DNA of 64,000 bases from Lysobacteraceae bacterium (GTDB lineage Bacteria > Pseudomonadota > Gammaproteobacteria > Xanthomonadales > Xanthomonadaceae), in NCBI GenBank assembly GCA_023954075.1, contig JAMLIV010000011.1:1-64000 (forward strand), written 5' to 3'. The notes under the pieces are model-generated. The model did not search any database, was not told where the DNA came from, and saw nothing but the letters and a program-made list of their open reading frames with translations. Made by a program: the position numbers and the translations under genes. Positions 1 through 10,038 of this stretch are shown here, in pieces (position 1 is the first letter of the stretch; each line of letters starts with the position of its first letter).

Positions 1-163
1 GAAGCCTGTTTCCTGCCCAGCGATGGAGCGCCACAGGATCCGAGACGCGAGCGTAATCAACGACGTTGAGTGGCTTTGAGACGCCGGCGAAGCGCACGGC
101 CAGAGCCACCGCTAGCAGGACCGGCACGAGAGCGAACTGGACGATTGCGAGGACGGATGCCAT
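1..163 (-). CDS. Cassette ORF, N-terminal part of a membrane or exported protein (runs off left edge)
   Basis: Start codon ATG at 163-161, immediately next to the attC core at 167. The frame stays open to base 1, giving 54 codons. The product begins MASVLAIVQFALVPVLLAVA, a hydrophobic segment that would be a membrane anchor or signal sequence, and then becomes polar. I see no family. The position directly after an attC site, in the same orientation as the two cassette genes to its right, is the main support for it being real. The C-terminus and stop lie outside the window. Confidence 0.5.
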   Translation of the reverse strand, partial: MASVLAIVQFALVPVLLAVALAVRFAGVSKPLNVVDYARVSDPVALHRWAGNRL

Positions 164-166
164 GCG

Positions 167-226
167 GCCTAACGTCTGACATGAGGGGCCGCCGATAGGC
201 GGTCCCTCTCGATGGATGGGTTAGGC
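167..226 (-). other. attC recombination site of the second cassette
   Basis: Outer cores GCCTAAC (167-173) and GTTAGGC (220-226) are perfect complements, and the match extends to TGCGGCCTAAC/GTTAGGCCGCA (163-230). Inner arms GAGGG-CCGCC (183-193) and GGCGG-CCCTC (198-208) pair around a 4-nt loop with one mismatched position. The 60-bp length and nested symmetry match chromosomal-integron attC sites. The stop codon of the upstream cassette gene (221-223) lies inside the site, as is common. Confidence 0.88.
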
Positions 227-706
227 CGCAGTAGCAAAGTATCTAACGACCTTGCAGTTCGTAGGTGCACCACTTTGAACCTTATGAAGAAGCCAGTAAC
301 CGTAGCCTTGAGACAGCCCGAAAGCAAATTCAAATGCGGCGAAAAACCAAACAATCGAAGCTCCATTCATGACCAGAAGATAATACAACTGCCAGATAAA
401 GAATAAGGTACGAGCTGCGGTATCAAAAAGCCCAAAGATAGGTTGCGGGTTCCAGATGCGCAGAAGAGACCAGACTATGACGATGCTGCCAAGAAGGTTG
501 GCAAAAAGGACGTGCAATGGCTCAAATGCCGGAAGGGGCGAGATCTGACCTAGCATTTGATGGACTATGTGAAATGTCCATGGTGTAGCGAATGCTGCAG
601 TTGCGACGAGATCGTAAATTGCACTTGAACGCACAAGCTGACGATATTTGACGGAGAGCATGGACGTGGGCATTCCTTTAGCAGAGTTGATGGGACGGTG
701 TGACAT
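221..706 (-). CDS. Cassette-encoded membrane protein of unknown function
   Basis: Minus-strand cassette gene between two attC sites. The longest cassette-internal start is ATG at 706 (161 aa). Other in-frame ATGs at 673 and 661 are possible, and no start has a convincing ribosome-binding site. An upstream ATG at 790 is rejected because it lies beyond the attC at 713-771. The protein has about four hydrophobic stretches (for example around AAFATPWTF, LFANLLGSIVIVWSLL, FFIWQLYYLLVM and WFFAAFEFAF) and a final basic, Cys-containing tail, so it is probably an inner-membrane protein. No family recognised. Confidence 0.65.
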   Translation of the reverse strand: MSHRPINSAKGMPTSMLSVKYRQLVRSSAIYDLVATAAFATPWTFHIVHQMLGQISPLPAFEPLHVLFANLLGSIVIVWSLLRIWNPQPIFGLFDTAARTLFFIWQLYYLLVMNGASIVWFFAAFEFAFGLSQGYGYWLLHKVQSGAPTNCKVVRYFATAA

Positions 707-712
707 ATTGCG

Positions 713-771
713 GCCTAACGCCCAATTAACCCGCCGCGCGAAGCGCGGTCGGGTTGAATTACTAGTTAGGT
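713..771 (-). other. attC recombination site of the first cassette
   Basis: Cores GCCTAAC (713-719) and GTTAGGT (765-771) flank nested arms AACCCG-CCGCGC (728-740) and GCGCGG-CGGGTT (744-755), with a GAA loop and one unpaired T on one side. The 59-bp size and extrahelical base are typical of attC. It follows the stop of the cassette gene at 780 and precedes the next cassette gene. Confidence 0.88.
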
Positions 772-779
772 TTGGGGCA

Positions 780-1313
780 TCAGTTGCCATTGGTTACTTC
801 AAGCAATGCCTGCACATAGTTTGCTGGAATTGAAATCATGAAGTGATTGGCATCTTGGCTGCGCAGTTGAATTTCCAGTTTTCCATCAGATGTGTACTTA
901 TCGATCTGTTCTTGCGTGACATGAATTATGTAATATTCGGACAACACACAAGGTCTCGAACTGCAGGTTACAACCTTTCTTTGCGTGTTTGAAAGTGTCG
1001 CTGTTTCGCCTCCGCGGAATATTGCAGTTGAATACCTGCGCCACTCACCTCTGTACATTATGAAGCCCTGAATTGTAACGGGAGTAAATGTGCCGGCGGA
1101 CTTTACTCTTGCTAGAAATATGGCGCCATTGTCTGCACTGATGGTTCCGAACTTAATGGCAGGAGCGGAATATTCGTAGCGATCAGCAAAATCATCTGAT
1201 TTGACAGATATTTCCACTCCGTTGCTTGCAGTCTGTATGGATTCAGATGCGTACAGCGGTAGGGAGCTAATGTATATAAGAGAAGCTGCGAGGATGGCAT
1301 TGATGTGCTTCAT
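780..1313 (-). CDS. First cassette: exported protein of unknown function
   Basis: 177 aa. Starts MKHINAILAASLIYISSLPL, a clear Sec signal peptide with probable cleavage after YA near residue 22. The mature part is polar and beta-rich in appearance, with two cysteines (TCSSRPC) that could form a disulfide in the periplasm. The ATG at 1313-1311 has a GGAG ribosome-binding site eight bases upstream. The gene sits between the attI-like region and the first attC, so it is the cassette closest to the integrase and the best placed for expression. No family recognised. Confidence 0.75.
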   Translation of the reverse strand: MKHINAILAASLIYISSLPLYASESIQTASNGVEISVKSDDFADRYEYSAPAIKFGTISADNGAIFLARVKSAGTFTPVTIQGFIMYRGEWRRYSTAIFRGGETATLSNTQRKVVTCSSRPCVLSEYYIIHVTQEQIDKYTSDGKLEIQLRSQDANHFMISIPANYVQALLEVTNGN

Positions 1314-1346
1314 GAGACTCTCTCCAGGTGTTGTTGTGCCGAGTAG

Positions 1347-1489
1347 AACCTAACTACAATTCGACCCCATGCGTCAGCCTAACTCTGCAGCCTAATCCCG
1401 CCGTTTACGGACGGCGCAAAGCAAAAGTCTTAGCCGAAACAAGGGGTTGTTCTGATCGTGCAGCCTATCCAGTCAGCCTAATCTTGCAG
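1347..1489 (-). other. attI-like region with repeated TTAGG cores
   Basis: Read on the minus strand, this stretch has a core GTTAGGTT (1354-1347) next to the first cassette and further cores at 1383-1377 (GTTAGGC), 1396-1390 (ATTAGGC) and around 1480-1474 (ATTAGGC). The 18-bp blocks 1373-1390 and 1472-1489 are near-identical direct repeats about 99 bp apart. Integrase-binding direct repeats beside the simple recombination core are the known architecture of attI. I infer the insertion point at the GTTAGGTT core. No clear cassette promoter was seen. Confidence 0.6.
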
Positions 1490-1517
1490 CGTTTCTTGGC
1501 GAACCGGGGGCTGGGCT

Positions 1518-1706
1518 ATGGGTGGATGGTCACACGAGAAGAAGGGTGGTGCAAGGCCGCTGCCAGCGGACGCGTCGCCGCGCCCGCGTCTGCTGGACGA
1601 GGTGCGCGGCAGGCTCCGCCGGCTCGGGTTGGCGCGACGCACCGAGGAGGCGTACGTCGGCTGGATTCGACGCTTCATTCTCGCCAATGGCAGGCGGCAT
1701 CCGCGA
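1518..1706 (+). pseudogene. intI: Integron integrase, N-terminal fragment (truncated)
   Basis: Translation from ATG 1518 gives 63 residues that match the N-terminal SAM-like domain of integron integrases, including LLDEVRGRLRRLGLARRTEE, AYVGWIRRFILANG and RRHPR. Full IntI proteins are about 320-340 aa. Here the homology stops at HPR, exactly where a REP-type palindrome begins, and the catalytic tyrosine-recombinase domain (R-H-R-Y) is absent downstream. The frame stays open as unrelated sequence to 1976. The gene is therefore a dead remnant. It is oriented away from the cassettes, as intI normally is. Confidence 0.88.
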
Positions 1707-1818
1707 CGGGGCGACCTGCGGCATGCCCCAGCTGCCGCCGTTCCAAAGCCCGTCGCCCGCGCAGGGGCGACCTACGACTGTGCTCCCGACTTGGGTCACC
1801 CGCGCAGGGGCGGCCTGC
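1699..1818 (-). repeat. Cluster of three REP-type palindromes
   Basis: Three related units read on the minus strand: 1719-1699 (partial, ending at the intI break), 1775-1752 (starts GTAGGTCGCCCC, ends GCGGGCGAC) and 1818-1795 (starts GCAGGCCGCCCC, ends GCGGGTGAC). Each has a GTCGCCC/GGGCGAC-type stem. They resemble the GTAG-headed REPs known in Stenotrophomonas and Xanthomonas. The rest of the 357-bp gene-free stretch 1707-2063 shows nothing recognisable apart from the palindrome at 1946. Confidence 0.7.
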
Positions 1819-1945
1819 GGCGATGCTCCCAGCCTGAGCCGGATTATCTGAAGAAAGGTCTGAACAAGTTTCTGCCGTCGTGCCTCGCCGAATTGCTGTT
1901 TCTGATGGACGAAGGTCTGTCCACCCCATTCCCTGGCAGCAGCAT

Positions 1946-2063: not shown

Positions 2064-3626
2064 CTAGCTGTCGGGGATGGCAGCGCCGCCGAGCCCGAAC
2101 TGCAGCAGCGCGGGGTTGCCGGTTTCCTCCGTGTACCAGTAGCCGAGTTTCTCCAGGTCTGCGGCGAAAGCGGCATCGTCGGATTCGGCCACTTCGAACC
2201 CGCACAGTACGCGGCCATCGGCGGCACCGTGGTTGCGATAGTGGAACAGGCTGATGTTCCAGCGGCTGCCGAGGGTTTCGAGGAAGTGGCGCAGGGCGCC
2301 GGGGCGCTCGGGAAACTCGAAACGGAAGATGCGCTCGCGCGCCAGCGGCGCGGGGCCGCCGACGAGGTAGCGCACGTGCTCGTGCGCGACTTCGCTGTCG
2401 GTGTAATCGGCCACGGGATATCCGGCACCTCGCAGGGTGTCGGCCAGGGCGGTGCGTTCGGCACCGCCGCCCTTGAGCGCGACGCCCAGATAAATCTGCG
2501 CGTTGCTGGAGCCGTGGTAGCGGTAGTTGAATTCGGTGATGGCGCGCTGGCCGATGGCGCGGATCAGGTCGAGATAGGCACCGCGCCGCTCCGGGATGGT
2601 CACGCCGAACAGCGCCTCGTGCTGTTCGCCCACGCCGGCGCGGTCGGAGACGTAGCCGAGGCGATCGAAGTTCATGTTGGCACCGCTCAGCACCGCAGCG
2701 AAGGTGCGCCCGGTGCCGGGGTTGTTCGCGCACCAGCGCTTGATGCCGGCCACGGCGAGCGCACCGGCCGGTTCGACGATGGAGCGGGTGTCTTCGAACA
2801 CGTCGCGGATCGCCGCGCATACCTGGTCCGAATCGACCGTGATGACTTCGTCGATGCGCCGCCGCAGAAGTTCGAACGGCAGCGCGCCGACCTGCCGCAC
2901 CGCGCAGCCGTCGACGAAGATGCCGACGTGCTCCAGCGGCACCGGCTCGCCCAGCAGCATGGCGGCCTTGAGGCAGGCGGCGTCATCGGGTTCCACCGCG
3001 ATCACGCGCACCGAGGGATCGAGCGCCTTGAGATAGGTGACCATGCCCGCCGCCAATCCGCCGCCGCCGACGGGAATGAACACCGCGTCGAGCCTGCCCG
3101 GATGCTGGGCCATCAGCTCCATCGCCACCGTGCCCTGCCCCGCGATCACGTCGGGGTCGTCGTAGGGATGGATCAGGATGCGGCCTTCGGCTTTTGCCAG
3201 CGCCATGCCGTGCGCCGCGGCATCATCGTAGGAATCGCCGTGCAGCACCGCGCGCGCGCCCAGCGCTTCGACCGTGTCGGACTTGATGCGCGGCGTGGTG
3301 GCCGGCATCACGATCACCGCGTCGATGCCGAGTTTGCGCGCGCCCAGCGCCACGCCCTGCGCATGGTTGCCGGCGGACACCGCCAGCACGCCGCGCGCGC
3401 GTTCCTCGGGCGTGAGCCGCGCCAGGCGGGTGTAGGCACCGCGCAGCTTGAAGGAGAACACCGGCTGTTCGTCCTCGCGCTTGAGCAGCACGGTGTTGTT
3501 GAGGCGCGCGGAAAGGCGGCGCGCGAGATCGAGCGGCGTGCGCTCGGCCACGTCGTACACCGGCGCGGTGAGGATGGCGCGCAGCCAGGCGGTATCGTCG
3601 TCGGAAGCGGGGTGCGGACGGTTCAT
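2064..3626 (-). CDS. ilvA: Threonine ammonia-lyase, biosynthetic
   Basis: 520 aa, the size of the long, allosteric IlvA. It deaminates threonine to 2-oxobutanoate, the first committed step to isoleucine, using PLP. The PLP lysine is K60 in FSFKLRGAY; SAGNHAQG and GGGGLAAG are the phosphate and substrate loops. The C-terminal 190 residues carry two ACT-like regulatory repeats (FPERPGALRHFL is the second), which in the family bind isoleucine and valine. The start is ATG 3626, 10 bp after leuB; the frame stays open upstream to 3905 inside leuB, but that extension has no homology. It is the last gene of the ilv/leu cluster. Confidence 0.95.
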   Translation of the reverse strand: MNRPHPASDDDTAWLRAILTAPVYDVAERTPLDLARRLSARLNNTVLLKREDEQPVFSFKLRGAYTRLARLTPEERARGVLAVSAGNHAQGVALGARKLGIDAVIVMPATTPRIKSDTVEALGARAVLHGDSYDDAAAHGMALAKAEGRILIHPYDDPDVIAGQGTVAMELMAQHPGRLDAVFIPVGGGGLAAGMVTYLKALDPSVRVIAVEPDDAACLKAAMLLGEPVPLEHVGIFVDGCAVRQVGALPFELLRRRIDEVITVDSDQVCAAIRDVFEDTRSIVEPAGALAVAGIKRWCANNPGTGRTFAAVLSGANMNFDRLGYVSDRAGVGEQHEALFGVTIPERRGAYLDLIRAIGQRAITEFNYRYHGSSNAQIYLGVALKGGGAERTALADTLRGAGYPVADYTDSEVAHEHVRYLVGGPAPLARERIFRFEFPERPGALRHFLETLGSRWNISLFHYRNHGAADGRVLCGFEVAESDDAAFAADLEKLGYWYTEETGNPALLQFGLGGAAIPDS

Positions 3627-9021: not shown

Positions 9022-10038
9022 TCAGGCAGCAGCCTTCTTCGCCGATGCCGAATCCTTCAGCCAGCTCATCGAGGCGCGCAGCCGGCGGCCCACCTCCTCG
9101 ATCGGGTGGTCCAGATCCTTCTGCTTGAGGGCCTGGTAGTTGGCGCGGCCGGCCTTGTGCTCGGCGATCCACTCGCGTGCGAAGGTGCCGTCCCGGATTT
9201 CCTTGAGCACCTGGCGCATCTGCGTGCGCGCGTGCTCGTCGACCACGCGCGGGCCGCGCGTGAGGTCGCCGTACTGCGCGGTTTCGGAGATGAACTGGTG
9301 CATGCGCGCCAATCCGCCCTCGTTGAGCAGGTCGACGATCAGCTTCAACTCGTGCAGTACTTCGTAATAGGCGATCTCGGGCTGGTAGCCGGCTTCCACC
9401 AGGGTCTCGAAACCCATCACCACCAGCTCGGTCGCGCCACCGCACAGCACCGCCTGCTCGCCGAACAGATCGGTTTCGGTTTCCTCCGGGAAGGTCGTCT
9501 CGATGACGCCGCCGCGGGTGCCGCCGATGCCGTCGGCGTAGGCCAGCGAGAGCTCCCTGGCCTTGCCGGTGGCGTCCTGATGGATCGCGAACAGCGAGGG
9601 CACGCCGCGGCCTTCCTCGTACTGGCTGCGCACCAGCGCGCCGGGGCCCTTGGGCGCGACCAGGATCACGTCCAGATCCTGGCGCGGGGTGATGGCACCG
9701 AAATGCACGTTGAAGCCGTGCGCGAACAGCAGCGCCGCGCCCGGTTTGGCGAGCGGCGCAACGATCTGTTCATACAGTTCGGCCTGCACCATGTCGGGCG
9801 TCAGCAGCGCGATCAGGTCGGCCTTCGGAATCGCGTTCTCCGGCGTATCCACCGCCAGACCATCCTCCTGCGCCTGCTTGAAACTGGCACCATCGGGGCG
9901 TGCGGCCACCAGCACGTTGAACCCCGAATCACGCAGGTTGCGCGCATGCGCCCTGCCCTGGCTGCCGTAGCCGTAGATGACGGTGAGCTTGTCGCGCAGC
10001 GCGGCGGGATTGGCGTCGGCGGTGGTGTAGGTTTTCAT
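9022..10038 (-). CDS. ilvC: Ketol-acid reductoisomerase (class I)
   Basis: 338 aa, the short class I form. Converts acetolactate or acetohydroxybutyrate to the dihydroxy acid with NADPH and Mg. The Rossmann motif is [10 protein letters not shown]. The following loop ARPDGASF should set the cofactor preference and keeps an Arg and a Ser as in NADPH users. The metal ligands are in the C-terminal part ([14 protein letters not shown] and [14 protein letters not shown]). Start [10 protein letters not shown] at 10038. The spacer to ilvD (149 bp) contains tandem repeats. No acetolactate synthase (ilvG/B, ilvM/N) is in the cluster. Confidence 0.95.

Follow-up and report, generated by a model that had tools for sequence, protein, structure and literature searches.

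Organization of the locus

The window, by which we refer to the entire analysed stretch of 64,000 nucleotides, encompasses bases 1–64000 of the 90-kb contig C3 and begins with the first base of this contig, which is part of a 2.65-Mb draft genome of 31 contigs with a completeness of 86% and an estimated contamination of 0.02%. Its first 1706 bases contain what is close to certainly an integron array with an attI site and a remnant of the 5' end of the integrase gene intI (Table 1). The chromosomal integron array proposed in the preliminary description is thus borne out by the attI, two attC sites and cassettes of unassigned function. On the minus strand and in leftward direction, attI is followed by cassette 1, an attC, cassette 2, a second attC and the incomplete cassette 3, and matches of a covariance model of attC sites indicate that the cassettes are oriented away from attI. 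The array has ilvA as chromosomal neighbour, which shares 81% identity with its ortholog in a congener and precedes leuB and other leu genes. The GC-rich repeats located at the break of intI resemble GCGCAGGGGCGNCCTRCG, for which we found four matches in the 64-kb window compared to 0.44 expected, with related dispersed repeats residing further to the right. A search for sigma-70-like promoters in the window region 1–2100 did not identify any candidate, so that a cassette promoter is at most putative.

Table 1. Features at the left end of the window.
Feature	Position	Strand	Details
Cassette 3, incomplete at contig end (first 172 bp only)	1–172	-	Open frame 163–2, one N-terminal hydrophobic stretch
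attC of cassette 2	167–226	-	R'' 226–220, R' 173–167; 41.2 bits, E 2.4e-9
Cassette 2	173–718	-	ORF from ATG 706 (or 673) to 221; ends read from R' cores
attC of cassette 1	713–771	-	54.9 bits, E 2.6e-13
Cassette 1	719–1353	-	ORF 1313–780, 177 aa
attI	1354–1517	-	Crossover G^TTAG between 1354 and 1353; 1350–1483 identical in three loci
intI 5' remnant, 63 codons	1518–1706	+	Start of N-terminal SAM-like domain only
GC-rich interspersed repeats, GCGCAGGGGCGNCCTRCG-like	1703–1819	+	Copies at 1703, 1759 and 1802, at intI break
ilvA (threonine dehydratase)	2064–3626	-	Named from inspection of translation

attC sites and cassettes

For the detection of attC sites we used a covariance model trained on 20 sites, all originating from other genomes of the family. 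The model contains two helices with 97% of cells paired and both-sided changes at four pairs, and in slid controls the fraction of paired cells drops to 48% or less. Its application to the window, where a lack of hits at the two sites had been named as refuting the initial assignment, yielded exactly two matches (771–713 and 226–167, both on the minus strand; E-values in Table 1) and none elsewhere. Both sites display paired R''/R' and L''/L' boxes and an extrahelical base and are repeated between open reading frames, with the stop codon of the cassette 2 frame being located within its attC. The complementarity of the R'' and R' cores extends over seven of seven positions at 167–226 and six of seven at 713–771, and a search for the core pattern together with folding points to strong hairpins, which confirms the two attC sites with complementary cores described previously. 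A search of the whole genome with the same model detected about 18 sites distributed over the contigs C3, C6, C23, C1, C15 and C9. A scan of Rfam retrieved a single tRNA and no match to an attC family.

The GC content of the two complete cassettes amounts to 0.46 and 0.50, compared to 0.69 in the chromosome, and the AT-richer composition that was ascribed to the cassettes is thus confirmed; the truncated third cassette shows a value of 0.64. The claim that the cassettes code for membrane or exported proteins appears plausible from inspection of the sequence and hydropathy. By inspection, the cassette 1 protein carries a signal-peptide-like N-terminus, and the product of cassette 2, of about 160 residues, contains at least two hydrophobic helices. 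As stated before, all three open reading frames are unassigned, with no match to profiles of Pfam, NCBIfam and PADLOC, and a search of 246 other genomes of the family retrieved no relative of the proteins from cassettes 1 and 2. Orphan proteins of this kind are usual for integron cassettes. Structure predictions of the same two proteins by AlphaFold2, run without alignment, gave mean pLDDT values of 33.6 and 57.7, which are too poor for interpretation.

A truncated integrase gene and its intact counterpart

In the preliminary description, intI was sought to the left of the array. Contrary to this expectation, its start codon is found at 1518 on the plus strand, to the right of attI, from where the gene diverges from the array. 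The remnant matches residues 1–40 of the integrase profile TIGR02249 with 28.7 bits and the N-terminal SAM-like domain PF13495 with an E-value of 2e-6, and its reading frame is lost at about 1706 within the GC-rich interspersed repeats. No functional intI is thus present at this locus, where only codons 1–63 remain in the expected orientation, and the locus consequently makes no integrase of its own. Conversely, an intact IntI is encoded in the same genome at C23:163224–164165, whose first 63 residues are 98.4% identical to the remnant. This protein scores 470.6 bits against TIGR02249 (cut-off 265) and 309 bits against the solved structure of IntI4 (2a3v), to which it aligns over nearly its whole length, including the segments CHTLRHSFATH and GHSDVSTTQIY and those of the additional domain. 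A second 5' remnant of intI is located on contig C6, with a break point unlike that of C3.

Three attI sites in the same genome

When searched with the junction of the C3 locus, the genome was found to contain the same piece on C23 (98.6% identity over 356 bp) and at C6:41429 (88%). The crossover G^TTAG marks the precise point at which the similarity sets in; on its other side, each of the three loci carries a different first cassette. This position conforms to the G^TTRRRY crossover next to a first cassette, with the 7-mer GTTAGGT in the window. The first 134 bp of attI from the crossover are identical at C3, C6 and C23, establishing the attI-like region noted earlier as real, and between C3 and C23 the identity extends over 290 bp. 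Within attI, the region 1375–1483 holds four copies of AGGCTG arranged in two pairs, with a spacing of 13 bp within each pair, which are perhaps putative binding repeats of IntI.

The differences between the loci are unevenly distributed. Of the 36 positions that distinguish C6 from C23, 35 fall into 106 bp (matching 1484–1589 of the window) that span the start of intI and are flanked by stretches nearly identical to C23, thus characterizing the C6 locus as a recombination mosaic. Between C3 and C23 there are five differences, four of which lie in the last 18 bp of the C3 remnant, a pattern that argues against a simple assembly chimera. The tetranucleotide composition of core DNA from C3, C6 and C23 correlates with values of 0.87–0.89, as opposed to 0.55–0.80 in comparison with other genera.

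The first cassette at C23 encodes an efflux protein of the SMR family (PF00893, E 8e-33), and the first cassette at C6, at 15541–16422 of L017 (C6:25001–45000), a DEDDh exonuclease with BRCT domain (PADLOC PDC-S48, E 3.5e-29) that is possibly anti-phage. C6 carries a long array with IS110-family elements within its attC sites. Transposases of this family, about 1.6 kb in length, are repeatedly found inside attC sites, at 2890–15551 of L017 and at 9861–13478 of L016 (C23), and further ones near 6850 of L118 (C1) and near 6000 of L120 (C9). The copies on C6 and C23 are 90–96% alike and a different variant is present on C1 and C9; these elements fit the IS1111-attC group, on C1 and C9 as judged from their sequences. 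A fourth array of the genome, of the CALIN type, is located at about 6140–6820 of L118 (C1:214000–226000). It consists of two attC sites that are accompanied by neither intI nor attI and are flanked by mnmA and a gene resembling histidine ammonia-lyase.

Related loci in other genomes of the family

An intI gene scoring above cut-off was detected in 101 of 149 genomes of the family. In one genome from another genus (G101), attI together with the 5' part of intI is present in three copies, which are 92–97% identical and diverge at the crossover; their intI genes are cut at about profile codons 144, 145 and 110, and the assembly contains no intact intI. The 26 other genomes of the same genus each yielded one match or none, and outside G101 no match reaches the first 217 bp of the query, which correspond to its attI part. 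We conclude that the multiplication is recent and particular to the genome. In a further genome (G134), a 5' remnant of intI shares 91% identity with one of the full copies present there.

In the congener G001, whose assembly is incomplete, no match to intI rises above the XerC/D-like background. No integron is found at its rimK-like and ABC-transporter sites, which match C23 and C6, nor in the only 362 bp available past ilvA. Their absence from the matching sites indicates that the integrons are either lineage-specific or have been lost in G001. A literature search for genomes that harbour several nearly identical attI sites did not find any precedent, which does not prove its absence.

Discussion

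Integrons are usually described as the combination of one integrase with one attI. The array at the left end of the window is an ordinary integron locus minus its integrase, and what is unusual is the multiplication of the attI platform within the genome. We consider it likely that this region is one of three attI arrays of a Xanthomonadaceae-like chromosome, here without a complete intI, that is served in trans by the IntI encoded on C23. Since attI and attC are intact, the action of this enzyme in trans is the best inference from the sequence, and with an intact IntI next to a near-identical attI elsewhere in the genome, one enzyme probably serves the three platforms. IntI of C23 would then insert cassettes at the attI of C3 and excise them via folded bottom-strand attC sites, and we infer that the cassettes at C3 may be expressed. 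For the order of events, either the attI with the 5' piece of intI could have been copied to new loci, or formerly complete copies could have lost their intI, accompanied by gene conversion of the attI sites. A version in which the piece was copied to new sites, each gathering its own array under one shared integrase, is a tentative proposal that we regard as possible.

Alternatively, the loci on C3 and C6 could be dead relics of formerly complete integrons, whose intI was destroyed and whose arrays persist as stable passengers that are used by no integrase. Such relics would resemble the inactivated integrons of Xanthomonas, where intI is commonly inactivated by deletion, frameshift or stop (PMC12444791), and would be in line with the C6 array, whose attC sites contain numerous IS elements, and with G101, where three remnants exist next to no intact IntI and the extra attI copies may thus be mere relics. 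In our genome, however, an intact IntI exists, the attC sites of the window have retained their cores and hairpins, and attI is untouched over the 134 bp shared by all three loci, with nearly all C6–C23 differences confined to the adjacent 106 bp; we therefore regard this alternative as rather unlikely. Even less probable, in our view, is an artefact of assembly or binning, in which only one integron would exist and its attI repeat would have linked unrelated contigs or variants from different strains. Although the genome is a draft, the C3 array is located at a contig end and repeats of about 350 bp, such as the one of 356 bp, can confuse short-read assembly, the divergence of the C3 remnant from C23 and the position of the 88% alike C6 locus in the interior of an 82-kb contig are both difficult to reconcile with this view, as are the agreement in composition, the low estimated contamination and the recurrence of the same pattern in another genus. 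Some risk from the draft assembly remains for the three-locus picture.

If one IntI serves several attI sites, a cell could maintain several distinct banks of cassettes with a first-cassette position for each, some arrays filed as integrase-less would be live, and the origin of new platforms within a genome would become testable. CALINs are defined by the presence of at least two attC sites and the lack of a nearby intI, irrespective of attI. Integron surveys in which a complete intI is required and attI is not modelled would label arrays of the described kind as CALINs and miss them. Like a CALIN, the C3 locus is an array of attC sites without a functional integrase of its own and with an IntI elsewhere in the genome; unlike a CALIN, it has retained the 5' end of intI and a complete attI with the same sequence as the one next to the intact intI.

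Chromosomes with several integron platforms are also found in Shewanella (PMC9229058) and, within the family, in G094. In these cases several intI genes were counted as complete, in contrast to the near-identical attI sites with 5' remnants of intI described here, and the Shewanella survey left out partial IntI (PMC9229058). With respect to its type of IntI and attC and the frequent loss of intI, the locus is similar to the sedentary chromosomal integrons of the Xanthomonadaceae, such as the one at ilvD of Xanthomonas (PMC12444791), with which it also shares an intI divergent from attI and array, and small AT-rich orphan cassettes. It differs from the latter by adjoining ilvA, by the truncation of its intI at codon 63 and by the presence of two additional attI copies elsewhere in the genome, of which one adjoins an intact intI. 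Finally, the IS110-family transposases of the C6 and C23 arrays resemble the IS1111-attC insertion sequences (Tetu and Holmes 2008, cited in PMC12444791) in being inserted inside attC sites, whereas the part of the C3 array contained in the window carries no such insertion.
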